Positions 29,315 to 61,286 of a stretch of 64,000 bases of DNA are shown one piece after another. A model generated the notes under the pieces. It made no database searches. It was not told where the DNA came from and was given only the letters and a program-made list of their open reading frames with translations. The position numbers were made by a program, and so were the translations under genes. The DNA is from an uncultured Oscillospiraceae bacterium (GTDB taxonomy: Bacteria; Bacillota; Clostridia; Oscillospirales; Oscillospiraceae), in NCBI GenBank assembly GCA_947631865.1, contig CANRNF010000002.1, positions 1 to 64,000 of the forward strand. The letters are read 5' to 3'. Each line of letters begins with the position of its first letter. Position 1 is the first letter of the stretch.

Positions 29315-32300
29315 ATGAAGCTTCGGAAGGTATTGGCATTCATCCTGGCGGCGGCCATGCTGCTGGGACTATGCACGGGCTGCGGAAAAAAGCCCGAGGA
29401 GATGTATGACGAGGCCATGGAGGCCATAGACAGCGGCGACGCCGCCAAAGGCGAGGAGCTGCTGACCAAGGCGGCGGAGAAGGACTATGTCCCCGCCAGC
29501 GCCAAGCTGGGCTATATGTATGCCAGCGGCGACGGCGTGGAGAAGGACCTGGCCAAGGCCGCGGAGATGTACCAGAAGGCCGCGGACGGCGGCGACGGCA
29601 AGAGCATGCTCTACCTGGGCACCATGTACCTCGCGGGCGATGGCGTGGAGAAAGACGAGGCCAAGGCCTTTGAGCTGCTCACCCAGGCGGCGGAGCTGGT
29701 CCCCGAAGCCTATTTGAACCTGGGCATGGCTTACCACTTCGGTGTGGGCACGGAGAAGGACTACGCCAAGGCCGTAGAGTGCTGGACCAAGGGCTTGGAG
29801 GAATGCGAGGAGGGACACCACACGACCTGGTGCGCCGCCAGCTTGGCCGAGTGCTATTACTACGGCATGGGCACGGAGCAGAGCTTTGAAAAGGCCTTTG
29901 AACTGTTTTCCCAGACCGCGGAGGATGGCTACGCCCATTCCCAGCAGTATATGGGCCGGTTCTCTCAGTTCGGCTACGGTGTGGTGGACATAGACTATAC
30001 CCAGGCGGCGGAGTGGTACCAGAAGGCCGCGGATGGCGGCGACGCGGGCGGCATGATATTCCTGGGCGACCTTTATGCGGCCGGCCAGGGTGTGGAAAAA
30101 GACGAGGCGAAGGCCGATGAGCTGTACGGCCAGGCGCTTAAGACGCTCACCGAGGCCGGCGAGGACGCGCGGTATGACAGCGGATACTTCCTCCTGGGCT
30201 ACATCTACAAAAACGGCCTGGGCGTGGAAGAAGACGCCGACAAGGCCCTGGAGTACTTCACTGCCTCTGCGGATATGGGCGACCCGGACGGCATGTTCGA
30301 CCTGGCCCGGTGCCATTACGACGCGGGCGAATACGACGAGGCCCTGGAGCTTTTCACCGAATGCGCGGATATGAACATGCCCGAGGCCATGGTGCAGCTT
30401 GGCTATATGTACGCCGCAGGCCAGGGCGTGGAGCTTGATTACGCCAAAGCTCTGGACCTTTTTGAGCAGGCCGAGGCCCTGGACGACCCCTACGTGTGCT
30501 TCTACCTGGCCGACATGTACATGTACGGTCTGGCCGTGGAGGAGGACTATGTCAAGGCACGGGAGTACTATGAGCAGGTCCTGACCATCCCCGAGACAGG
30601 CGACTTCGCCCTGGGCTACGCCGCGGAGAACGACGGCTGGTTCTATGAGTACGGCACGGGCGTGGAGCAGGATCAGGCCAAGGCCGAAGAGCTCTACGCT
30701 CAGGCTTTCGAAGCCGCCTCGGAGGACGAGGACTACAGCTACAACGCGCTGGTGCTGGGCTACCTTTACATGACCGGGGAGGGCGTGGAGCAGGACTATG
30801 AAAAGGCCCTGGAATACTTCACCGCCGCGGCGGAGGACGATATCTTCGAGGCCGAGTGCCAGGCAGGCGCGATATATCTCATGGGTCTCGGCACGGAGCA
30901 GGACGAGGCCAAGGGCCTGGAGATGCTGGAGGACGCGGCGGAGCGCGGCGTGCCCGAGGCTTATTACTATCTGGGCACCGCCTATGCGGACGGCGACGGC
31001 GTGGAGCGGGACTACGCCAAGGCCCGGGAGCTCCTGGAACAGGGCGAGGCCTTGGGCGTCGCCGACGTCTGCTACTATCTGGCCGACATGTATATGTATG
31101 GCCTGGGCGTGGAGGAGGACTATGTCAAGGCGCGGGAGTACTACGAGCAGTCCATGATCCGCGCCCAGGGCGACGACGCGACTGTGGGCTACGCCGCGGA
31201 GAACGACGGCTGGTTCTATGAGTACGGCATGGGCGTGGAGATGGACAAGGCCAAGGCCTTCGAGCTCTACACCCAGTCGGCGGAGCTGGGCTATGTGGAC
31301 GGCCAGACCTCCCTGGGCCGGTTCTATGACTACGGCTACGGCGTGGTGGACGTAGACGACGCCAAGGCGGCGGAGCTCTATGCCCAGGCCGCGGACCAGG
31401 GCGACGCCGAGGCCATGCTGTACCTGGCCTGGCTCTATGACTTCGGTCAGGGCGTGGAGCAGGATCAGGCCAAGGCCGAAGAGCTCTATGCCCAGGCTTT
31501 CGAGGCCGCCTCGGAAAACGAGGACTACAGCTACGACCAGCTGGTGCTGGGCTACCTTTATCTGGACGGCACCGGCGTGGAGCAGGACTATGCCAAGGCC
31601 CTGGAATACTTCACCGCCGCGGCGGAGGACGACATCTTCGAGGCCGCGTGCGAGGCGGGCACCCTGTATCTCGTGGGTCACGGCACAGAGAAGGACGAGG
31701 CAAAGGGCATTGAGTTGCTCCAGGACGCGGCAGAACACGGCGTGCCAGAGGCCATGTGCGGTCTGGGCTACGCCTATGCCTATGGCGATGGCGTGGAGCG
31801 GGATGACGCCCAGGCGGTCCAGTGGCTCGAAAAGGCCGCGGACATGGGAAATGCCAACGCCATGAACCAGCTTGGCTATATGTACGCCAACGGCGAGGGC
31901 GTGGAGCAGGACTGCGATAAGGCCCTGGAGATATTCACCCAGGTGGCGGCGTCGGACGCGTCCGATTATGACAGAGGCTATGCGCTGTACTGCCTGGGCT
32001 ATATGTACGGACACGGCCTGGGCGTGGAGGAGGACGACGCCAAGGCCGTAGAGTATTACACCCAGGCGGCGGAGCTGGGCGATACGTCGGCCGTGGGCGA
32101 GCTGGGCGACGCCTATGCCCGCGGCAAGGGCGTGGAGCAGGACGGCGAGGAGGCCCTGAAGTGGTACGGCCAGGCCGCGGAGGCCGGTGACCCCGACGGC
32201 CTGGACTGCATGGGCGACATGTATTTCTGGGGCGACGGCGTGGACGTGGACAAGGCCAAAGCCTTCGACTACTACACCCAGGCCGCGGAGATGGGCGACC

Positions 32301-35026
32301 AGGACGCCCAGTTCCAGATGGGCCGGTTCTATGAAAACGGCTACGGCGTGGTGGACAAGGACACGACCCAGGCGGCGGCGTGGTACGAAAAGTCCGCCGG
32401 ACAGGAGGATGCGGAGGGCATGCTGGCCCTGGCGCGGCTCTATATGGACGGCCGCGGCGTGGAGAAGGACGAAGCCAAGGCCGAGGAGATCATAAAGAGC
32501 CTGGTGGAGGACCTCACGGAGAAGGAGGAGACCGACACCCTCGCCCCCACGGAGAAGCGGGTGCTGGCCACCCTTTACGCCCACGGCGGTGTCCTTGACA
32601 AGGACGAGGAAAAGGCCGCGGCCCTCTATGCCGAGGCGGCAGAGGCCGGCAATTACGAGGCGGTGGCCGCCCTGGCCTATGCGTATCGGCACGGCGTGGG
32701 CGTAGAGGAGGACGCCGCCAAAGCGGCGGAACTCTATGCCCAGGCGGCGGAGCACGGGGTCGACAGGGCCATGCTTCTGTTGGGCAACATGTATTACTGG
32801 GGCGAAGGGGTGGACCAGGACTACGGCAAGGCCCTGGAGTTCTACACCCAGGCGGCGGAACTGGACAACGCCGAAGCCCAGAATGAACTGGGCACCATGT
32901 ATTACAACGGCGACGGTGTGGACCAGGACTATGAAAAGGCCCTGGCGTATTTCGAGTGCGCCGCGGATGAGAACAACGAAGACGAGATAAGATCCCGCGC
33001 GCTGTTCGATGCCGCCTATTTCTATCACTTCGGCCTGGGCACGGAAAAGGATATGGATAAGGCCGTGGAACTCTATGCCCAAGCGGCGGAACTGGGCGAC
33101 GACTCCGCCGCGTACAACCTGGGCAGACTGTATGAAGACGGCGAGGAAGTGGAAAAGGACCCTGCCAAGGCCCTGCGATACTTTACCCAGTCGGCGGAGG
33201 CGGGCGACGCCCACGCCATGCGGAAGGTGGGCGACGCCTACATGTTCGCCGACGGCGCGGAGCTTGACAGGGCCAAAGCCCTGGAGTGGTACGAAAAGGC
33301 CGCGGACGCGGGCGGCGAGACCGGCCCGTACATGATCGGCTACTTCTATGAAAACGGCTACGGCGTGGTGGACATCGACCTGGCCAAGGCGGTCGAGTGG
33401 TACGAAAAGGCGGCGGAGAACGACCAGCCGGAGGCCATGTACAATCTGGCCAGATGCTATGCGCAGGGCCTGGGCGTGGAGCAGGACGAGGCCAAGGCCC
33501 AGGAGCTCTACGAGAGCCTGGCGGAGCAGCTCACCGCCGTAGACGAGGAGGAGCTCTCCGGCCGGGAGGCGCGTGTTCTCGCCTGCCTCTATGAACTGGG
33601 CCAGGGCGTGGAGAAGGACGAGGCCAAGTCCGCGGAGCTCATGGCCGCCGCCGCGGAAATGGATGACTGGCGGGCCGTGGACTATCTTGGCCAGTTCTAT
33701 TACTACGCCATCGGCGTGGAGCAGGACAAGGCAAAGGCCGCGGAACTCTACACCCGGGCGGCGGAGCACGGCGTGCCCGGGGCGATGTACAATCTGGGCA
33801 CGATGTATCTCGCCGGCGACGGCGTGAGCCAAGACTACGCCCAGGCGCTGGCGTGGTTTGAAAAGGCGGCGGAGCAGCAGTTCCCCAACGCCTGTTACGC
33901 CCTGGGCTATATGTATGAGTTTGGCATCGGCGTGGAGCAGGACTACGACAAGGCCCTGGAATATTACGAAAAGGCGGCGGACCTGGGCGACGCCTACGCC
34001 ATGGGCCAGCTGGGCTATATGTACCACGTGGGCCACGGCGTGGAGGCGGACCTGGCCAAGGCCGCGGAGTATTACGGCAAAGCCCTCGCCACAGGGGAGG
34101 GCAGCTCGATAGCGGCGTCCAACCTGGCCGGGATGTATCTCTATGGCGACGGCGTGGAGGTGGACAAGGACAGAGCCTTCGAGCTCTATAACCAGGCGCT
34201 GGAGAAGGACGAAGGGAACACCTCGGCCCTGGAGGCCATGGGGGAGTTCTACCTGTACGGCGAGGGCTCGGTGGAGCAGGACCTGGCCCAGGCGGCGGAG
34301 TTCTTTGAAAAGGCCGGAGCGGACGACGTGGAGGCTGCCTACTACCTGGCGAATCTCTATGAGCTGGGCTACGGCGTGGAGAAGGACGAGGCCAAGGCGG
34401 AGGAGATGTTTGCGGACCTGGCCGGCCGGCTCACGAAGGAGGAGGACCCGGACTCCGCCGAGCAGCGCATCCTGGCCTATCTCTATAAGTACGGCAAGGG
34501 CGTGGAGAAGGACGAGGCCAAGGCGGTGGAGCTGCTTTCCGCCGCCGTGGAGGATGACAACTACCAGGCGGCCGACTCTCTGGCGCGGTGCTATCACGAC
34601 GGCGTGGGCGTGGAGAAGGATGAGGCCAAGGCGGTGGAGCTCTATGCGCTGGCCGCAGAGCATGGCGTCGCGTCTGCCGCCGGCGACCTGGGGGATATGT
34701 ATTATCAGGGCGACGGCGTGGCCCAGGACTGCGAAGAGGCGGCCAAGTGGCTCCAGCTGGGCGCGGACATGGGCGACGCCTACTGCCAGGGCTACCTGGG
34801 GTATCTGTATCTGGAAGGCGACGGCGTGGAACAGGACTACGGCGAGGCCCTCCGGCTCTTTGAGGAGGCCATGGACGAGGACGACGAGTCCCTGTACGCC
34901 CTGGGCACGATCTATGAAAACGGCCTGGGCGTGGAGCCGGATATGGATAAGGCCATGGACTATTACACGCAGGCCGCGGACAGGGGCGTGGAGACCGCCG
35001 TCCAGCGGCTGGCAGAAGCGAAGTGA
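29315..35026 (+). CDS. Giant Sel1-repeat lipoprotein (~1,903 residues)
   Basis: The ATG at 29315 follows GGGAGG and encodes a lipoprotein signal peptide with lipobox LCTGC. The rest is almost wholly Sel1-like repeats, ~36-residue helix pairs of the pattern A..LG.MY..G.GVE.D..KA.E.Y..AAE.G. Length implies roughly fifty units. A few spacers interrupt them, for example around ENDGWFYEYG and the DLTEKEETDTLAPTEKRVL insert. The mature protein is very acidic (GVEQDYEKA, GVEKDEAKA). Sel1 solenoids are protein-interaction scaffolds; this one would sit on the outer face of the membrane. Longer blocks are duplicated inside the gene. No catalytic domain is visible, and the binding partner is unknown. 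Confidence 0.93.
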   Translation: MKLRKVLAFILAAAMLLGLCTGCGKKPEEMYDEAMEAIDSGDAAKGEELLTKAAEKDYVPASAKLGYMYASGDGVEKDLAKAAEMYQKAADGGDGKSMLYLGTMYLAGDGVEKDEAKAFELLTQAAELVPEAYLNLGMAYHFGVGTEKDYAKAVECWTKGLEECEEGHHTTWCAASLAECYYYGMGTEQSFEKAFELFSQTAEDGYAHSQQYMGRFSQFGYGVVDIDYTQAAEWYQKAADGGDAGGMIFLGDLYAAGQGVEKDEAKADELYGQALKTLTEAGEDARYDSGYFLLGYIYKNGLGVEEDADKALEYFTASADMGDPDGMFDLARCHYDAGEYDEALELFTECADMNMPEAMVQLGYMYAAGQGVELDYAKALDLFEQAEALDDPYVCFYLADMYMYGLAVEEDYVKAREYYEQVLTIPETGDFALGYAAENDGWFYEYGTGVEQDQAKAEELYAQAFEAASEDEDYSYNALVLGYLYMTGEGVEQDYEKALEYFTAAAEDDIFEAECQAGAIYLMGLGTEQDEAKGLEMLEDAAERGVPEAYYYLGTAYADGDGVERDYAKARELLEQGEALGVADVCYYLADMYMYGLGVEEDYVKAREYYEQSMIRAQGDDATVGYAAENDGWFYEYGMGVEMDKAKAFELYTQSAELGYVDGQTSLGRFYDYGYGVVDVDDAKAAELYAQAADQGDAEAMLYLAWLYDFGQGVEQDQAKAEELYAQAFEAASENEDYSYDQLVLGYLYLDGTGVEQDYAKALEYFTAAAEDDIFEAACEAGTLYLVGHGTEKDEAKGIELLQDAAEHGVPEAMCGLGYAYAYGDGVERDDAQAVQWLEKAADMGNANAMNQLGYMYANGEGVEQDCDKALEIFTQVAASDASDYDRGYALYCLGYMYGHGLGVEEDDAKAVEYYTQAAELGDTSAVGELGDAYARGKGVEQDGEEALKWYGQAAEAGDPDGLDCMGDMYFWGDGVDVDKAKAFDYYTQAAEMGDQDAQFQMGRFYENGYGVVDKDTTQAAAWYEKSAGQEDAEGMLALARLYMDGRGVEKDEAKAEEIIKSLVEDLTEKEETDTLAPTEKRVLATLYAHGGVLDKDEEKAAALYAEAAEAGNYEAVAALAYAYRHGVGVEEDAAKAAELYAQAAEHGVDRAMLLLGNMYYWGEGVDQDYGKALEFYTQAAELDNAEAQNELGTMYYNGDGVDQDYEKALAYFECAADENNEDEIRSRALFDAAYFYHFGLGTEKDMDKAVELYAQAAELGDDSAAYNLGRLYEDGEEVEKDPAKALRYFTQSAEAGDAHAMRKVGDAYMFADGAELDRAKALEWYEKAADAGGETGPYMIGYFYENGYGVVDIDLAKAVEWYEKAAENDQPEAMYNLARCYAQGLGVEQDEAKAQELYESLAEQLTAVDEEELSGREARVLACLYELGQGVEKDEAKSAELMAAAAEMDDWRAVDYLGQFYYYAIGVEQDKAKAAELYTRAAEHGVPGAMYNLGTMYLAGDGVSQDYAQALAWFEKAAEQQFPNACYALGYMYEFGIGVEQDYDKALEYYEKAADLGDAYAMGQLGYMYHVGHGVEADLAKAAEYYGKALATGEGSSIAASNLAGMYLYGDGVEVDKDRAFELYNQALEKDEGNTSALEAMGEFYLYGEGSVEQDLAQAAEFFEKAGADDVEAAYYLANLYELGYGVEKDEAKAEEMFADLAGRLTKEEDPDSAEQRILAYLYKYGKGVEKDEAKAVELLSAAVEDDNYQAADSLARCYHDGVGVEKDEAKAVELYALAAEHGVASAAGDLGDMYYQGDGVAQDCEEAAKWLQLGADMGDAYCQGYLGYLYLEGDGVEQDYGEALRLFEEAMDEDDESLYALGTIYENGLGVEPDMDKAMDYYTQAADRGVETAVQRLAEAK

Positions 35027-36865: not shown

Positions 36866-36926
36866 CACGCATCGAAGGCCCCGTGGGCGTTTGAGATAAA
36901 ATTTTTACAAGAAGGAGAACAAAAAC

Positions 36927-37763
36927 ATGAAGAAACTGATCGCCCTTGCGCTGGCGCTGGTCATGGCGCTGGCTCTGACCGTCCCCGCCCTGGCGGCGGA
37001 GGAGAAACCTAAGATGAAGCTCGGTACGCTGGAAATGCTGTCGCGGACGGAAGATGAGAGGAATTCCCTTACCGACGAGGTAGAAAACTCTGAGGACAAC
37101 AAGTTCCCCCTGATGCAGCAGAATAACATACAGTACATCTGTTACAATACCCTTTCTGAGTTGCTGATGGCCCTGGACGCCGGATACGTTGATGTGGTCC
37201 AGGCAGATGAGCCTATGGTGCAGTACGTCATCTCCCGGAACGACGCCTACGCCGAGTTCCAAGCCGCGGTAGAGCATCAGATAGAGTACAGCATGCTCTT
37301 CCTGGAGGAGGACGGGTTGCTGTGCGACCAGTTCAGCGAGGCTATCAAGGCCATGAAGGACGACGGCACCCTGGACACTCTGGCCGCGGAATACATCGAC
37401 GGCGTGATCGCCGGCGAGGACCCGGAGGCCGTGGCGTTCCCCACCTTTGAGGGAGCGGACACCGTCACCGTGGCAGTGACCGGCGACGTGCCCCCCATGG
37501 ACTACGTGGACGACACCGGCCATGCCGCCGGCTTCAACACCGCCGTGCTGGCCGAGATCGCCCAGCGGCTGGAGCTGAACATCGAGCTCATCCAGGTGGA
37601 CTCCAGCGCCCGCTCCCTGGCCCTTTCCAGCGGCCGCGCCGACGTGGCCTTCTGGGTCCAAACCATTCTCACCTTTAATAAAAACGATGTCCCCGAGGGA
37701 ACGGTCGCCAGCGAGCCCTATTATGCCACTGAGCTCTGCGGCCTTACGCTGGCCGCCGAGTAA
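36927..37763 (+). CDS. Secreted binding protein, SBP_bac_3-like with swapped halves, copy 1
   Basis: 278 residues with a signal peptide KKLIALALALVMALALTVPALA and no lipobox Cys. Residues ~30-165 align with the second half of canonical amino-acid binding proteins: a KLGTLEML strand, YNTLSELLMALDAGYVDVVQADEP, and SEAIKAMKDDGTLDTLAAEYIDG, the normal C-terminal helix. Residues ~175-278 then align with the canonical first half: TVTVAVTGDVPPMDYVDDTG, AGFNTAVLAEIAQRLELNIE, LALSSGRADVAFW, ASEPYY. The order is thus circularly permuted. It is the most diverged N-terminal half of the set along with copy 4. RBS AGAAGGAG is preceded by a small hairpin conserved before each copy. Confidence 0.85.
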   Translation: MKKLIALALALVMALALTVPALAAEEKPKMKLGTLEMLSRTEDERNSLTDEVENSEDNKFPLMQQNNIQYICYNTLSELLMALDAGYVDVVQADEPMVQYVISRNDAYAEFQAAVEHQIEYSMLFLEEDGLLCDQFSEAIKAMKDDGTLDTLAAEYIDGVIAGEDPEAVAFPTFEGADTVTVAVTGDVPPMDYVDDTGHAAGFNTAVLAEIAQRLELNIELIQVDSSARSLALSSGRADVAFWVQTILTFNKNDVPEGTVASEPYYATELCGLTLAAE

Positions 37764-37822
37764 CGAATCGGAGGCCCCAACGGGCTTTTGAGATAAAATT
37801 CATTCAAAAGGAGAAAAGAAAC

Positions 37823-38671
37823 ATGAAGAAACTGATCGCCCTTGCGCTGGCGCTGGTCATGGCGCTGGCTCTGACCGTCCCCGCCCTGGCGGCGGAGGAG
37901 AAGCCTTCGATGAAGGTCGGCATGCTGGAGCTGCTGGCCCAGTCGGAGCAGGAGATCAACGACATCGAGGATGAGTACAGTACCACCGACGAGGCGGAGG
38001 CCCCGCTCAAGGAGAACGACGTTTCGCTCGTCTATTATCACAGCCTGGCCGAGCTGCTGATGGCCCTGGACGCCGGGTATATCGATCTGGCCCAGGCGGA
38101 CGACCCCACGGTACAGTACGTCCTGTCCCGGAACGACGCATACGCCGAGAACCATCCCGCTCCCGAGATAGAGCAGGCGGTGGAATACAGCATGCTCTTC
38201 CTGGAGGAGGACGCCGAGCTCTGCGACAGCTTCAACGAGGCCATCACCGCCATGAAGGACGACGGCACCCTGGACGAGCTGGCCGCGGCACATATCGACG
38301 GCGTGATCGCCGGGGAGGACCCGGAGGCCGTGGCGTTCCCCTCCTTTGACGGCGCCGAGACCGTCACCGTGGCGGTGACCGGCGACGTGCCCCCCATGGA
38401 CTATGTGGACGATACCGGCCATGCCGCGGGCTTCAACACTGCTGTTCTGGCTGAGATCGCCCAGCGGCTGGAAGTGAACATTGAGCTCATCCAGGTGGAC
38501 AGCGGCGCCCGTGCCCTGGCCCTGGCCAGCGGCCGCGCGGACGTGGTCTTCTGGGCCCAGTCCTATACCGGTGAAGTCGCGATAGCGGATCTGGACATCC
38601 CCGAGGGCACGGTGGCCAGCGAGCCCTATTATACCACTGTGCTCTGCGGCCTCGTGCAGGGCGCTGAGTAA
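37823..38671 (+). CDS. Secreted binding protein, SBP_bac_3-like with swapped halves, copy 2
   Basis: 282 residues, same architecture as copy 1: signal peptide ending VPALAAEE, then the lobe-2-type half (SLVYYHSLAELLMALDAGYI, DLAQADDPTVQYVLSRNDAYA, AITAMKDDGTLDELAAAHIDG), then the lobe-1-type half starting ETVTVAVTGDVPPMDYVDDTG. The first ~330 bases are almost identical to copy 3, which implies recent duplication or gene conversion. The usual arginine after the first-half motif that grips the alpha-carboxylate is not evident (AQSYTGEVAIADL), so the ligand may not be a common amino acid. RBS AAAAGGAG. Confidence 0.85.
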   Translation: MKKLIALALALVMALALTVPALAAEEKPSMKVGMLELLAQSEQEINDIEDEYSTTDEAEAPLKENDVSLVYYHSLAELLMALDAGYIDLAQADDPTVQYVLSRNDAYAENHPAPEIEQAVEYSMLFLEEDAELCDSFNEAITAMKDDGTLDELAAAHIDGVIAGEDPEAVAFPSFDGAETVTVAVTGDVPPMDYVDDTGHAAGFNTAVLAEIAQRLEVNIELIQVDSGARALALASGRADVVFWAQSYTGEVAIADLDIPEGTVASEPYYTTVLCGLVQGAE

Positions 38672-38729
38672 CAAATCAGAGGCCCCCACGGGCTTTTGAG
38701 ATAAACACTATCAAAAGGAGAACAAAAGC

Positions 38730-39572
38730 ATGAAGAAGATCATCGCCCTTGCGCTGGCGCTGGTGATGGCGCTGGCCCTGACCGTCCCCGCCCTGGCGGC
38801 GGAGGAGAAGCCTTCCATGAAGGTCGGCATGCTGGAGCTGCTGGCCCAGTCGGAGCAGGAGATCAACGACATCGAGGATGAGTACAGTACCACCGACGAG
38901 GCGGAGGCCCCGCTCAAGGAGAACGACGTTTCGCTCGTCTATTATCACAGCCTGGCCGAGCTGCTGATGGCCCTGGACGCCGGGTATATCGATCTGGCCC
39001 AGGCGGACGACCCCACGGTACAGTACGTCCTGTCCCGGAACGACGCCTATGCCGAGGAGCATCCCGAGATCGAGCATACGATAGCATACAGCATGCTCTT
39101 CCTGGAGGAGGATGGGTCGCTGCGCGACAGCTTCAACGAGGCCATCACCGCCATGAAGGACGACGGCACCCTGGATGATCTGGCCGCGGAATACATCGAC
39201 GGCGTGATCGCCGGCGAGGACCCGGCTCCCGTGGCGTTCCCCACCTTTGACGGCGCCGAGACCGTCACCGTGGCCGTGACCGGCGACGTGCCTCCCATGG
39301 ACTACGCGGACGACACCGGCCACGCCGCCGGCTTCAACACCGCCGTGCTGGCCGAGATCGCCCAGCGGTTGGAGATCAACATCGAGCTGGTCCAGGTGGA
39401 CAGCGGCGCCCGTGCCCTGGCCCTTTCCAGCGGCCGCGCCGACGCGGCCTTCTGGGCCCGGTCCGCTGCCGCTGACCCCGTCATTGAAGGGCTGGATATC
39501 CCCGAGGGCACCATCACCAGCGAGTCCTATTACTCCGCCGTGCAGTGCTCCCTTGTGCTGGCCGCCGAGTAA
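38730..39572 (+). CDS. Secreted binding protein, SBP_bac_3-like with swapped halves, copy 3
   Basis: 280 residues with the same signal peptide and permuted halves. It diverges from copy 2 mainly after DAYAEEHPEIEHTIAYSML and in the segment that would line the ligand cleft (ARSAAADPVIEGL before DIPEGTITSESYY). The conserved GDVPPMDYADDTGHAAGFN marks the start of the lobe-1-type half. The same ~58-bp spacer and RBS (AAAAGGAG) as in the other copies precede it. Divergence concentrated near the cleft, with identity elsewhere, suggests that the paralogues differ in ligand preference; this is inference. Confidence 0.85.
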   Translation: MKKIIALALALVMALALTVPALAAEEKPSMKVGMLELLAQSEQEINDIEDEYSTTDEAEAPLKENDVSLVYYHSLAELLMALDAGYIDLAQADDPTVQYVLSRNDAYAEEHPEIEHTIAYSMLFLEEDGSLRDSFNEAITAMKDDGTLDDLAAEYIDGVIAGEDPAPVAFPTFDGAETVTVAVTGDVPPMDYADDTGHAAGFNTAVLAEIAQRLEINIELVQVDSGARALALSSGRADAAFWARSAAADPVIEGLDIPEGTITSESYYSAVQCSLVLAAE

Positions 39573-39626
39573 TACATTAGAGGCCCGGCGGTCTCCCGCC
39601 GGGCCTTTGAGGGAAACACTTTCAAA
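39573..39626 (+). promoter_or_regulatory. Strong intergenic hairpin between copies 3 and 4
   Basis: AGGCCCGGCGG-TCTC-CCGCCGGGCCT followed by TTGAGGG is a perfect 11-bp stem between two genes of the array. Weaker versions (GGCCC-CCAC-GGGC, then TTTTGAG) occupy the same position before copies 1, 2 and 3. They probably act as attenuators or 3'-end stabilisers that set different amounts of each binding protein. Confidence 0.65.
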
Positions 39627-39640
39627 AGGAGTCCTGTAAC

Positions 39641-40480
39641 ATGAAAAAGATCATCGCCCTCGCGCTGGCGCTGGTGACGGCGCTGGCCCTGACCGTCCCC
39701 GCCCTGGCCGCGGGAGAGGGGTCCGAAATGCGGTTCGGTATGCTCACGAACCTGACGTTGAGCGAGGAAGAATTAAACGAAGTGACCGACAGGATCAAAA
39801 CAGAGGAGCCTGACAGCAGGTTCCCTATGCTCAAAGAGTATGATGTGGAGACCGCTTATTATCATAGCCTTTCCGAGCTGCTGATGGCCCTGGACGCCGG
39901 ATATATCCAGCTCGCCGTAGTCGACGAGCCAACGGTGCAGTACGTCCTGTCCCGGAACGACGCCTATGCCGAGTTCCAGCCCCTGGCAGATCAGCCGATA
40001 GCGTATAGCATGCTCTTCCTGGAGGAGGACGCAGAACTCTGCGACAGCTTCAACGAGGCCATCAAGGCCATGGAGGACGACGGCACCCTGGACGCTTTGG
40101 TGGAGACCTATATCGACGGCGTGGTCGCCGGGGAGGACCCGGAGGCCGTGGCGTTTCCCGCCTTTGAGGGTGCCGAGACCGTCACCGTGGCCGTGACCGG
40201 CGACGTGCCCCCCATGGACTACGTGGATGACGCCGGCGACGCCGCCGGCTTCAACACCGCCGTGCTGGCCGAGATCGCCCAGCGGCTGGGCGTGAACATC
40301 GAGCTGGTCCAGGTGGACAGCGGCGCCCGGACCCTGGCTCTTTCCAGCGGCCGTGCCGATGCAGTCTTCTGGGTCAAGAAGCATATCTCCAGTGATACGA
40401 GCGAAGCCCCTGAGGGCACGGTGGAAAGCGAACCCTATTATACCACCCAGCTTTGCGATCTGGCGCTGAGCGCGGAGTAA
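39641..40480 (+). CDS. Secreted binding protein, SBP_bac_3-like with swapped halves, copy 4
   Basis: 279 residues, signal peptide IALALALVTALALTVPALAA, then MRFGMLTNLTLSEEELNEV and the lobe-2-type half (YYHSLSELLMALDAGYIQLAVVDEPTV), followed by the lobe-1-type half (ETVTVAVTGDVPPMDYVDDAG). The first ~60 mature residues differ from copies 1-3, whereas the second half is conserved. It follows the strongest of the intergenic hairpins, and the permease begins 5 bases after its stop, so copy 4 is translationally close to the membrane component. Confidence 0.85.
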   Translation: MKKIIALALALVTALALTVPALAAGEGSEMRFGMLTNLTLSEEELNEVTDRIKTEEPDSRFPMLKEYDVETAYYHSLSELLMALDAGYIQLAVVDEPTVQYVLSRNDAYAEFQPLADQPIAYSMLFLEEDAELCDSFNEAIKAMEDDGTLDALVETYIDGVVAGEDPEAVAFPAFEGAETVTVAVTGDVPPMDYVDDAGDAAGFNTAVLAEIAQRLGVNIELVQVDSGARTLALSSGRADAVFWVKKHISSDTSEAPEGTVESEPYYTTQLCDLALSAE

Positions 40481-40484
40481 AGCC

Positions 40485-41159
40485 ATGGGCTTTATTGAGA
40501 ACTTTCAGAATATCCTGCTTTCCGGCAAGAACGCCGCCACCCTGGCGGCGGGCCTGTGGATGACGCTGAAGATCTCGGCGCTGTCCGTCATAGCGGGCAC
40601 GCTGCTGGGGGCGCTGCTGTGCAAGCTCCGGACGGGCCGGTTCAAGCCCCTCCGGGGCCTGGCGGCGCTGTACATATCCATCGCCCGGGGCACGCCGGTG
40701 CTGATGCTGCTGATGCTGATGTACTATGTGGTGTTCGCCCGGGCGAAGGTTCCCGCCTACATCGTGGCGGTGACGGCATTCTCCCTCAACGTGGCGGCCT
40801 ATATGGCCGAGGTCATGCGCACGGCGCTGATGGGCGTGGACCCCGGCGAGGTGGAGGCGGCCCGGACCCTGGGCCTCAGCCGGTGGCAGGCGTTTTTCCA
40901 CGTGACTCTGCCCCAGGCGGTGGTCATGGCGAAGCCCACCTATCAGTCCACTATCATCAACCTGATCCAGTGGACCAGCGTGGTGGGCTATGTGACCATC
41001 ACGGACCTCACCCGCGTGGTGAACAACATCTCTGCCCGGACCATGCAGCCGCTGTTCATGATCCTGGTGGGCATGGCCCTGTATCTGGGCCTGTCCTACC
41101 TGGTGACCGGCATTTTCTGCCTCACCGGCCGGAAGAACGATAAAAAACAGAACGCATGA
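40485..41159 (+). CDS. Amino-acid-type ABC transporter permease (HisM/GlnP family)
   Basis: A 224-residue membrane component with five or so hydrophobic segments. The EAA loop EVEAARTLGLSRWQAFFHVTLPQAV, which contacts the ATPase, is intact, and ARGTPVLMLLMLMYYVVF is typical of the polar amino-acid family. It is the only permease gene, so it would act as a homodimer. Upstream lie the four permuted binding proteins and the frameshifted ATPase, which completes the transporter. If the ATPase is dead, another ATPase in the cell might substitute. Confidence 0.92.
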   Translation: MGFIENFQNILLSGKNAATLAAGLWMTLKISALSVIAGTLLGALLCKLRTGRFKPLRGLAALYISIARGTPVLMLLMLMYYVVFARAKVPAYIVAVTAFSLNVAAYMAEVMRTALMGVDPGEVEAARTLGLSRWQAFFHVTLPQAVVMAKPTYQSTIINLIQWTSVVGYVTITDLTRVVNNISARTMQPLFMILVGMALYLGLSYLVTGIFCLTGRKNDKKQNA

Positions 41160-58170: not shown

Positions 58171-58485
58171 ATGATACGCAAGGGGTTCAAAATGAAGCTG
58201 TATCCCGGCATGGCAGAGGAGTACGCCCGGCGGCACAACGCCCTCTGGCAGGAGATGCGGGATATGATCCACGAGTATGGCGGGCACAATTACTCCATCT
58301 ATCTGGACGTGGAGACCAACGTGCTCTACGGCTATATCGAGATCGAGGACGAGGCGCGCTGGGCCGCGTCGGCGGATACGCCCATCAACCGCAAGTGGTG
58401 GGACTACATGGCCGATATCATGGACACGAATCCGGACAACAGCCCCGTCTCCACGGACCTGCTGCCGGTGTTCCACCTGGACTGA
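58171..58485 (+). CDS. rhaM: L-rhamnose mutarotase
   Basis: 104 residues. Interconverts the alpha and beta anomers of L-rhamnose so that it can be isomerised. The family pattern is clear: FKMKLYPGMAEEYARRHNALW (conserved His), HNYSIYLDVETNVLYGYIEIED and NRKWWDYMADIMDTNPDNSPV. RBS GGGAGG. It is the clearest marker that the operon handles rhamnose. Confidence 0.96.
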   Translation: MIRKGFKMKLYPGMAEEYARRHNALWQEMRDMIHEYGGHNYSIYLDVETNVLYGYIEIEDEARWAASADTPINRKWWDYMADIMDTNPDNSPVSTDLLPVFHLD

Positions 58486-58518
58486 CAGCGGCTGAATAAT
58501 ACCGACAGGGGTGATGAT

Positions 58519-59871
58519 ATGCTACACCATGTCGCGCGGTTTCGCGCAAGCGGGAGCGCGACCGGTATTTTTGGGTATAACAGCGCGCAGCGTCTGTTAT
58601 ACCATCTAGCCATCGACATCGGCGCGTCGTCGGGCCGGCACATCGTGGGCTGGCGGGAGGACGGCGAGCTGAGGACAAAAGAGGTCCATCGCTTTCCCAA
58701 CGGGCCAAATGAGCGGGACGGCCACCTGACCTGGGACGTGGCCGCGCTGCTGGCGGAGGTCCGCATCGGTATCGAAAAGGCCAAAGCGGAATTTGGCTCC
58801 ATCGAGAGCCTGGCCATCGACACCTGGGGCGTGGATTATGTGCTGCTCCGGGGGGAGGAAGAAGTCCTCCCCTGCTACGCCTACCGGGACAGCCGCACCG
58901 AGGCGGTCATTGAAAAAGTCCACGAAAGAATGCCCTTCGGGGAGCTCTATCGCCGCACCGGCTGCCAGTTCCAGCCCTTCAATACCATTTACCAGATCTA
59001 TGCGGACAAGCTCTCCGGCCGGCTGGAGGGCGTCACGGACATGCTGATGCTGCCGGAGTACCTGCTCTGGAAGCTCTGCGGCGTCAAAGCGAGGGAGTAC
59101 ACCAACGCCACCACCACCGGCATGGTGAACGCCAAGACCGGAGAATTCGACCTGGAGACAGCGGACGCCCTGGGCCTGCCCCGGACGCTGTTTCCAAAAC
59201 TCCAGCAGCCGGGAACGGTCATCGGGGAATATGAGGGGATCCAATGCGTCCTCTGCGCCACCCACGACACCGGCTCGGCGGTGGAGGGCATCCCCATGGA
59301 GGGGAACGAGCCCTACATATCCTCCGGCACCTGGTCCCTGCTGGGGGTGAAGACACCAAAGCCCATCACGGATGAGGCCAGCCGCGCCGCCAACTATTCC
59401 AACGAGGGCGGCGTGGGGTATGACCGCTACCAGAAGAACATCATGGGCATGTGGCTGGTGAATCAGCTCCAAAAGGAGCTATGCCCGGACACGCCCTTCC
59501 CGGAGATCGTGAAGATGGCGGAGGCAAGTACATGCAACCTCACCGTGGACGCCAACGCCCCCGGGTTCCTGGCCCCGGAGAGCATGGTGGCCGCTTTTGA
59601 CCAGGCGGCGGGCGGGGTCCTCAAGGCCACTGGCGATTACTTCCGCTGCGCCTATGCAAGCCTGGCCCTCAGCTACCGGGACGCTATCCGGGAGCTGGAA
59701 CGGAACACCGGGACGTGCTATAATAAGCTCTACATCGTGGGCGGCGGGGCGAAAAACGCCTTTCTGAACCGCCTGACGGAACAGGCCACGGGCCTTGAAG
59801 TGGTGGCCCTGCCCATCGAGGCCACGGCCCTGGGCAACTTAAAAGTACAAATGGAGGCAGTGTCATGTTAG
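58519..59871 (+). CDS. rhaB: Rhamnulokinase, with repeat-derived N-terminus and short C-terminus
   Basis: A FGGY-family kinase that phosphorylates L-rhamnulose. The normal family N-terminus would begin at YHLAIDIGASSGRHI. Upstream, a 27-residue extension (HHVARFRASGSATGIFGYNS...) is encoded by an inverted copy of the 79-bp palindromic repeat, while the ATG at 58519 and its site (AGGGGTG) lie just before it. Other motifs are intact: SLAIDTWGVDYVLL, CHDTGSAV-like THDTGSAVEGIP, SSGTWSLLG, VGGGAKNAFLNRLTEQATG. The frame ends soon after EATALGNLKVQ, where homologues continue for ~40 residues. The next gene starts inside its last codons. Activity is therefore uncertain. Confidence 0.9.
   Translation: MLHHVARFRASGSATGIFGYNSAQRLLYHLAIDIGASSGRHIVGWREDGELRTKEVHRFPNGPNERDGHLTWDVAALLAEVRIGIEKAKAEFGSIESLAIDTWGVDYVLLRGEEEVLPCYAYRDSRTEAVIEKVHERMPFGELYRRTGCQFQPFNTIYQIYADKLSGRLEGVTDMLMLPEYLLWKLCGVKAREYTNATTTGMVNAKTGEFDLETADALGLPRTLFPKLQQPGTVIGEYEGIQCVLCATHDTGSAVEGIPMEGNEPYISSGTWSLLGVKTPKPITDEASRAANYSNEGGVGYDRYQKNIMGMWLVNQLQKELCPDTPFPEIVKMAEASTCNLTVDANAPGFLAPESMVAAFDQAAGGVLKATGDYFRCAYASLALSYRDAIRELERNTGTCYNKLYIVGGGAKNAFLNRLTEQATGLEVVALPIEATALGNLKVQMEAVSC
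58526..58605. repeat. Inverted copy of the 79-bp palindromic repeat inside rhaB
   Basis: On the minus strand this reads ATGGTATAACAG...CTGTTATA, then AAAAATACCGGTCGCGCTCC and ACCGCGCGACATGGT. This is the same structure as the pair at 2703-2860. Both ends carry ACCAT on the + strand. It is free of stops in the rhaB frame. Confidence 0.85.
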
Positions 59872-61286
59872 TCCAGACCAAAGCGAGAGTGGGCGTGTTC
59901 GCCATCGCCCTGGGGGCCTATCTGCCCCAGTTCCCCTCTCTGGTGCCCGAGTTCGAGGGGCAGTATGCCGACTTCAAAAAGCGCATCCCCGACACCGTGG
60001 AGCTCATAGACGGCGGCCTCGTCACCACCAAGGAACTGGCCATGGCCGCCGGGGACAGGTTCCGGGCCGCGGACGTGGACCTGGTGATCTTGCAGCTTCT
60101 GACCTACGCCACCAGCTACAATATGCTCCCCGCCGTGCGGGACCTGGACGTGCCCGTGGTGCTGGTGAACCTGCAGAAGAAGCGGGCCCCCGATTACGAG
60201 CACACCGACACGGCCACATGGCTGGGCCAGCTCTATGCCTGCGGAGCCGTGGGCGAGATGGTGGCGGATTTAGAGCGGGCCGGGAAACGCCACGCGGTGA
60301 TCACCGGCGTGGTGGAGGGCGGCGACGACCACGCCCAGGCGGAGATAGAGGACTGGTGCCGGGCCGCCCAGGTGCGCCGCCGCTTTCGGGATACGAACCT
60401 GGCCCAGATCGGCCGGCCCTATCCCGGGATGATGGACCTCTACATCGACGAGACCAACCTCTACCACCGCATGGGCCTTTATACCAAGCAGTTCGACTGG
60501 GAGAAGATGTGGGCCATCGCGGACGATGTGACCGACGAGGCCGCCATCCGGGCCAAGGCGCAGGACATCCTGGACACCTTCGACATCGAGGGCGGCGGGA
60601 CCATCGAGAAGGTCTGGGACATGGCAAAGTACGTGGTGGCCTTCGAGCAGTGGGTGAAGGACGAGCAGCTGGCCTTCGTGGCCTCCCACTACGACGGCTT
60701 CGCCCAGGGCGTGGCCGGGAAGCTGGACAGCATGCTCATCCCCGCCTTCTCCATGCTCATCAAGCAGGGCACGGCCTGCGCCGTGGAGGGGGACATCAAG
60801 GTGGCCATGGCCATGAGCATCCTCAAGACCATCGCCGGGACGGGGCAGCTTTCCGAGATGTACTCCATCGACTTCGACGAGGACATCTGCATCATCGGCC
60901 ACTCCGGCTCCGGGGACGCGGACATCTCCCAGGCGCGAAAGCCCACCATGAAGATCGTCCCCGTGTTCCACGGCAAGACCGGCGGCGGATACCTGACCCA
61001 GTTCTATCCCCCCACCGGGCCGGTGACGTATCTGGGCATCACCCAGGACCGGGACGGACACTTCAAGTTCGTCGCCGCCGAGGGCGTCAACGAGCCCGGG
61101 CCCATCTTCACCTTCGGGGACACCAACATGCGCACCCGGTTCACCTGCGGGGCCCGGGAGTTCTGCGACAGGTGGAGCGAGGCCGGCCCCACCCACCACA
61201 TGGCCGCCGCCGTGGGCCGGCATATCGACACCATCCTGAAAGTTGCTAAAATATTCAATGTCCCCGTGGACGTGATCACGAGATAA
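59865..61286 (+). CDS. L-fucose/L-arabinose isomerase family protein, probable rhamnose isomerase substitute
   Basis: 473 residues of the FucI/AraA-like fold (COG2407-type), not the RhaA family. The Rossmann-like N-terminal domains include ADVDLVILQLLTYATSYNML, and QIGRPYPGMMDLYIDETNLY. The metal-site region ACAVEGDIKVAMAMSILKTI (Glu) and IIGHSGSGDADIS, plus the late THHMAAAVGRHI, fit the isomerase active site. It overlaps rhaB by 7 bases and precedes rhaD, exactly where an L-rhamnose isomerase would be expected. No other isomerase lies in the window, so it may catalyse rhamnose-rhamnulose conversion, though L-fucose or another sugar cannot be excluded. Confidence 0.82.
   Translation: MLVQTKARVGVFAIALGAYLPQFPSLVPEFEGQYADFKKRIPDTVELIDGGLVTTKELAMAAGDRFRAADVDLVILQLLTYATSYNMLPAVRDLDVPVVLVNLQKKRAPDYEHTDTATWLGQLYACGAVGEMVADLERAGKRHAVITGVVEGGDDHAQAEIEDWCRAAQVRRRFRDTNLAQIGRPYPGMMDLYIDETNLYHRMGLYTKQFDWEKMWAIADDVTDEAAIRAKAQDILDTFDIEGGGTIEKVWDMAKYVVAFEQWVKDEQLAFVASHYDGFAQGVAGKLDSMLIPAFSMLIKQGTACAVEGDIKVAMAMSILKTIAGTGQLSEMYSIDFDEDICIIGHSGSGDADISQARKPTMKIVPVFHGKTGGGYLTQFYPPTGPVTYLGITQDRDGHFKFVAAEGVNEPGPIFTFGDTNMRTRFTCGAREFCDRWSEAGPTHHMAAAVGRHIDTILKVAKIFNVPVDVITR

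Follow-up and report, generated by a model that had tools for sequence, protein, structure and literature searches.

A hairpin repeat inserted in frame behind the start codon of a rhamnulokinase gene in an uncultured Oscillospiraceae bacterium

Introduction

How can a gene for a conserved sugar kinase carry a palindromic repeat between its start codon and its first conserved residues and still remain readable? This question is raised by rhaB in the 64,000-nucleotide stretch of DNA analysed here (the window), which stems from an Oscillospiraceae-related metagenome assembly that is 87% complete (genome G000). A first-pass annotation had proposed that protein sequence had arisen at this site from a noncoding mobile repeat and that the repeat's stem could fold in the mRNA at the start codon and reduce translation. 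We compared the locus with the corresponding sites of congeners and with other copies of the repeat.

Results

The rhaB gene and its operon

The rhaB gene extends from 58519 to 59871 on the forward strand and encodes 450 amino acids, including the repeat-encoded tail, in an intact reading frame without an in-frame stop. Both kinase domains of the FGGY family (Pfam PF00370/PF02782) are present from residue 28 onward. The rhamnulokinase model TIGR02627 matches RhaB over its full length, albeit with a score of 419 bits that lies below the cut-off of 528, and the best solved relative is L-rhamnulose kinase from Escherichia coli (PDB 2cgj, E 6e-87, alignment from residue 30). The gene lies in a rhamnose operon comprising rhaM (58171), rhaB (58519), a gene resembling sugar isomerases (59865), the start of which is overlapped by the rhaB stop, and rhaD (61299). 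The presence of rhaM and rhaD in the operon supports the name rhamnulokinase, and the copy located therein is the only match to rhaB in its own genome at E ≤ 1e-40. The isomerase (59865-61286) matches models for L-fucose/arabinose isomerases weakly, below their cut-offs, and was not matched by any classical L-rhamnose isomerase model.

Empty and filled alleles

Comparison with empty sites allowed the insertion to be placed precisely. The ribosome-binding region AGGGGTGATGAT (58507-58518), of which GGGTGATGATATG is common to most empty-site congeners, is followed by the native first four codons ATG CTA CAC CAT (58519-58530), which read ATG AAG TAC CAT in the empty allele. The repeat-derived insert comprises 75 nt (58529-58603, forward strand) and splits the native TACCATC site between ACC and ATC, its bounds being set against the empty sites and by the target seen at other copies. 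The start of the gene in the window thus reads ATG CTA CAC CAT, then the repeat (GTC GCG ... TAC CAT), then CTA GCC ATC GAC; residues 5-29 of RhaB are repeat and the conserved kinase resumes with CAT CTA GCC ATC GAC (LAIDIGASSGR). Congeners with empty sites, whose kinases are about 88-90% identical, start with ATG AAG TAC CAT CTT GCC ATC GAC, and their proteins begin with MKYHLAIDIG, MPKYHLAIDIG or close variants, most of them 3' of the same GGGTGATGAT.

The arrangement described in the first-pass annotation, with ribosome-binding site and ATG before the repeat and the conserved protein behind it, is therefore borne out. The annotation had also counted about 27 repeat-encoded residues without a stop; the frame is indeed free of stops, but the net gain over the empty sites is 25 codons. 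Relatives without the insertion, with which a comparison had been suggested, do exist, and an unrelated extension of equal length, which would have spoken against the proposal, was found in none of the congeneric homologues examined. At the DNA level, the interspersed repeat and the empty sites support the idea of a mobile noncoding sequence turned into coding sequence, and its translation would be expected from the initiation signals and the lack of another common start codon.

A second species, represented by MAG Lapin-001 bin25 (G033), has the same filled rhaB site (L085) with four substitutions in 84 nt. As the two filled alleles were each obtained from a metagenome assembly, chance sequence or an assembly artefact had to be considered; the presence of the filled site in two species, the matching repeats elsewhere and the clean empty sites make this explanation extremely improbable. 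The rhaB gene of G033 (L033), the only other filled one, contains a single-base frameshift near residue 383 and may be a pseudogene or suffer from an assembly error. Since the sequence upstream of rhaB differs between G000 and G033, common descent and transfer of the filled allele both stand. Together with the stronger divergence of the rhaB body, the different upstream sequence indicates that one of the two filled alleles is probably mosaic.

Anatomy of the repeat

The consensus derived from 176 unique copies is ACCATGTCGcGCGGTTcCGGCGCAAGCCGGGAGCgCGACCGGTATCtTTttGGTATAACAGCGCgcaGCGtCTGTTATACCa, and base-pair covariation over 136 copies backs two hairpins. Hairpin I (58526-58566, forward strand) is built from ACC/GGT outer pairs and the stem GTCGCGC/GCGCGAC (58531-58537/58556-58562), which encloses a 6-bp stem with a GCAA loop (TTTCGC-GCAA-GCGGGA). 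The stem named in the first-pass annotation is thus real. GTCGTGC/GCACGAC is a common alternative to it, and the outer pairing of the left-flank ACC with an internal GGT is replaced by GCC with GGC in some copies. Hairpin II (58574-58603, forward strand) is formed by GGTATAACAG (58574-58583) and CTGTTATACC (58594-58603), a pairing likewise supported by covariation and fold. Directly 3' of hairpin I lies an ATTTTT run (58567-58572, forward strand) that, as a pattern, resembles a terminator. The predicted RNA fold of 58510-58620 has an energy of -45.5 kcal/mol (z = -3.6 against shuffled sequences), and a search of 58300-58800 against Rfam yielded no match up to E = 1.

Inserts are 71-83 nt long with a mode of 78 nt, itself a multiple of three, and 68 of 142 copies have a length divisible by three. 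Open reading frames through the copies are more frequent than in shuffled sequence.

Distribution of the family

BLAST searches returned 25 matches in the own genome, the best one besides the repeat itself with E 2.4e-25. Matches were also found in 22 of the 34 congeners searched, whereas none occurred in a sample of 25 genomes from other genera; in a family-wide sample of 201 genomes that included only three of this genus, the own genome was the sole match. No match was obtained in plasmid and phage records. Sixteen viral contigs contained an 18-nt pattern of the repeat; these are partial and weak matches to the full profile and we treated them as chance. Our search of the literature, which covered it in part, returned no description of this repeat family, and it appears to be undescribed.

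Within the window, two tandem copies reside between genes at 2719-2859 on the reverse strand, and the orthologous site in G033 (L289) is occupied as well. Taken together, the repeat is most likely a non-autonomous mobile element, moving by transposition.

The window contains further repetitive stretches: a gene or genes in which a repeat of about 108 nt (36 residues) resembling Sel1-like repeats occurs more than 30 times (29500-35000), four tandem copies of a unit of about 900 nt, 300-nt stretches of which are 74-97% identical (36880-40510), and a run of the tetranucleotide GACA at the contig start (1-85), possibly an assembly end.

Target sites and possible mobilization

The left flank of the copies is nearly always T(T/A)(A/G)TACC, such that they sit 3' of targets resembling TTATACC. 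Read on the opposite strand, this flank becomes ATGGTATAA, which corresponds to an extended -10 box, and such a target may explain why many copies lie beside promoters. The target found to the left of each copy (TTRTACC) has its reverse complement inside the repeat, in the left arm of hairpin II (GGTAYAA). Among non-tandem copies, the arm GGTACAAC is accompanied by TTGTACC on the left in nine of ten cases, and GGTATAAC goes mostly with nTATACC, several copies in these counts residing at orthologous sites and hence being non-independent. One might speculate that insertion sites are found by this complementarity between arm and target, which would make the repeat a guide-directed, genus-specific, single-strand mobile element that settles at extended -10 promoter boxes and also adds new peptide segments to genes; we regard this as a tentative idea.

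Single-strand transposition of the IS200/IS605 type involves subterminal hairpins, insertion 3' of a short target and an internal sequence complementary to the ends. The repeat described here shares hairpins near its ends, a specific insertion site 3' of a short target and end-complementary internal sequence with these elements; unlike them, it is not linked to a transposase, and we take the resemblance as a lead only. A Y1 transposase was considered as mobilizer. Genes matching Y1_Tnp occur in some congeners, yet none of them is flanked by repeats on both sides, and the 87% complete G000 assembly contains no Y1_Tnp match. Nor did we detect a gene for a RAYT-type transposase in the own genome or one flanked by these repeats.

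Other genes entered by the repeat

The rhaB gene is not the only one affected. A relaxase has the empty sequence MAYDKIYT/IRARLYDRICY in G011 and G025, and 26 residues are added after YT in G029, where the frame stays open, and in G033, where it breaks later. For an esterase, the empty version PYTVNTK is found in the own genome, and G001 contains an in-frame repeat (AYAMSCG...CYTVNTK). In the third case, an ORF of 1001 amino acids resembling RNA-dependent RNA polymerases, the empty site QVINEDCFSLDADH in G030 is interrupted by an in-frame insert of 26 residues in G033 and G020; the repeat-bearing ORFs of about 1000 residues (L290:1598-4600 on G033:C37, and L291 on G020:C74) match PF05183 (RNA-dependent RNA polymerase). 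In G009, by contrast with these in-frame cases, the repeat resides out of frame and with a stop in the gene for O-acetylhomoserine sulfhydrylase (L236 on G009:C19, about 1506-1586), apparently a natural knock-out. The out-of-frame case alongside the in-frame ones indicates that insertion of the repeat into genes takes no account of the reading frame, and that the intact genes are those that kept theirs.

Most long ORFs that span other copies were rejected as spurious GC-rich frames, few of about 60 listed being backed by family or empty-site evidence. A case resembling short-chain dehydrogenases/reductases (SDR; L259:1005-2708 on G012:C4) was left uncounted because its ORF is a chimera of several gene fragments. 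Its pieces match flavin reductase, SDR, DUF362 and AlkZ-related families, and a repeat copy lies inside.

Start codon and messenger structure

ATG 58519 is the only ATG, GTG or TTG start that keeps the phosphate-binding motif DIGASSGR, the next GTG following at codon 43. If CTG is admitted, one alternative start that keeps this motif appears, located exactly at the native start position (58594-58596, forward strand): each codon of CTG TTA TAC CAT CTA has its counterpart in ATG AAG TAC CAT CTT, and this is conserved in G033. Ribosomes starting there would produce a kinase of native length (M-LYHLAIDIG), and the repeat would be an untranslated hairpin in the 5'-UTR. The warning that misassigned starts make many N-terminal REPs extragenic (Di Nocera et al. 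2013, PMC3733652) also speaks for such a scenario. CTG is, however, a rare start, is located within hairpin II and is preceded by no obvious purine-rich Shine-Dalgarno sequence in acagcgcgcagcgt, whereas an intact native ribosome-binding region and ATG lie upstream in frame and are orthologous to the start of the empty alleles. Initiation at CTG thus seems improbable to us, and the empty sites with their orthologous ATG region argue against applying the warning about misannotated starts to this gene.

Does the insertion lower the expression of rhaB, and with it perhaps the output of isomerase and aldolase, through stems at the start codon or through attenuation by hairpin I and the ATTTTT run? 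The fold energy of -4 to +37 is -13.8 kcal/mol in G000 and -11.0 kcal/mol in G033, with empty alleles ranging from -3.4 to -6.3 kcal/mol, the terminator-like pattern covers 58542-58561, and the frameshift in G033 would fit a hypomorphic gene on its way to loss. On the other hand, the ribosome-binding region and start codon (-15 to +3) are predicted to be no less accessible than those of empty alleles (0.58 versus 0.36-0.61), translating ribosomes should disrupt the stems, and the rhaB ORF of G000 is intact with a normal dN/dS. Lower expression caused by an mRNA hairpin, as suggested in the first-pass annotation, is accordingly a possible consequence on the basis of folding predictions, although we consider reduced expression and progression toward gene loss rather unlikely as the explanation for the locus.

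The repeat-encoded tail and selection

Residues 1-25 of the predicted protein include the peptide FRASGSATGIFGYNSAQR. In an AlphaFold2 model, residues 1-23 have pLDDT values below 50, which is weak evidence of disorder because the underlying alignment does not cover the tail, and the kinase folds normally from the strand formed by residues 28-33. The dN/dS ratio of the kinase body is 0.12-0.18 between G000 and congeners and 0.10-0.18 between empty congeners, and this unchanged value indicates that the gene is kept under purifying selection.

The tail itself differs between G000 and G033 at only four of 84 nt, compared to about 12.5% for the remainder of the gene, and this could be taken as a sign of an exapted tail that selection maintains. 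Three of the four changes are nonsynonymous, with dN about equal to dS on these very few changes, and one of them breaks a stem pair. Moreover, 95% identity is ordinary for these two species, other loci being 87-96.5% identical; it is the rhaB body that is the outlier, and the gene looks mosaic. We therefore rejected low divergence as an indication of constraint. The comparison reveals no clear selection on the predicted tail in its own right, and its exaptation is very unlikely.

Discussion

The explanation that we consider probable is that a non-autonomous hairpin repeat of about 78 bp, presumably mobile by transposition, has inserted in rhaB, would be translated as a tail of a presumably active kinase and is tolerated. 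The repeat would have inserted 3' of the TACC target in codons 3-4. With 75 nt added and an open frame, rhaB would stay readable, the ribosome would start at the native ATG 58519 and read the repeat as 25 residues, predicted to be disordered, before strand 1, and then continue into an unchanged kinase. Such an insertion would be tolerated rather than useful, tolerance being expected because the residues of the kinase are untouched.

This kind of event is known from other bacteria. In passages of PMC2229807 and PMC3767692, RPEs (RPE-1 and others; Ogata et al. 2000, 2002) are described as short non-autonomous palindromic elements that occur between genes as well as in frame in conserved genes, sometimes N-terminally, at positions shared between related species. 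The repeat reported here resembles RPEs and the palindromic elements of Wolbachia: it is a short interspersed hairpin sequence, found in intergenic regions and in frame inside conserved protein genes that have empty-site homologues. Compared by description, it differs from RPEs in that it consists of two hairpins and about 78 bp, with inserts of 71-83 nt falling short of the 105-146 bp of RPEs proper (PMC2229807), in its TTATACC target and in its occurrence in a genus of Clostridia, not Alphaproteobacteria. The best analogue for rhaB is the RPE-bearing guanylate kinase, for which PMC2229807, citing Abergel et al. 2006, records both translation and activity.

REPs tagged with GTAG or CGTC are in some cases also found in frame within genes, where they encode 20-30 residues (Di Nocera et al. 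2013, PMC3733652). Similarities are the palindromic nature, tandem or dimeric arrangement and in-frame location of some copies, and two hairpins per unit recall REP dimers; unlike these REPs, the repeat lacks an unpaired GTAG or CGTC tag at the hairpin end (in the consensus beginning with TTATACCATGTCGCGC, GTCG lies inside a paired stem and GTAG is absent) and an associated RAYT-type transposase. Enterobacterial RU-1/ERIC, RU-2 and RU-3 and the Correia elements of Neisseria are MITE-like, and their reading frames are fused in frame to genes (Delihas 2007, PMC2229807, PMC2759123). Open frames fused to other genes are a shared trait; those MITEs mostly have terminal inverted repeats and TA target duplications, as opposed to two side-by-side hairpins with TTATACC at both edges. 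The repeat is thus filed as a new family of a kind that is itself known from Rickettsia RPEs and intragenic REPs.

The best-documented cases of protein genes capturing mobile palindromes in frame come from Rickettsia, Wolbachia and some Proteobacteria; in the gut Clostridia studied here, a compact repeat family does so repeatedly, in at least three genes besides rhaB. Annotators should be aware that an N-terminal extension in such a genome may be a repeat. The occurrence of empty and filled alleles among close congeners makes the tolerance, the expression cost and the fate of such inserts testable.
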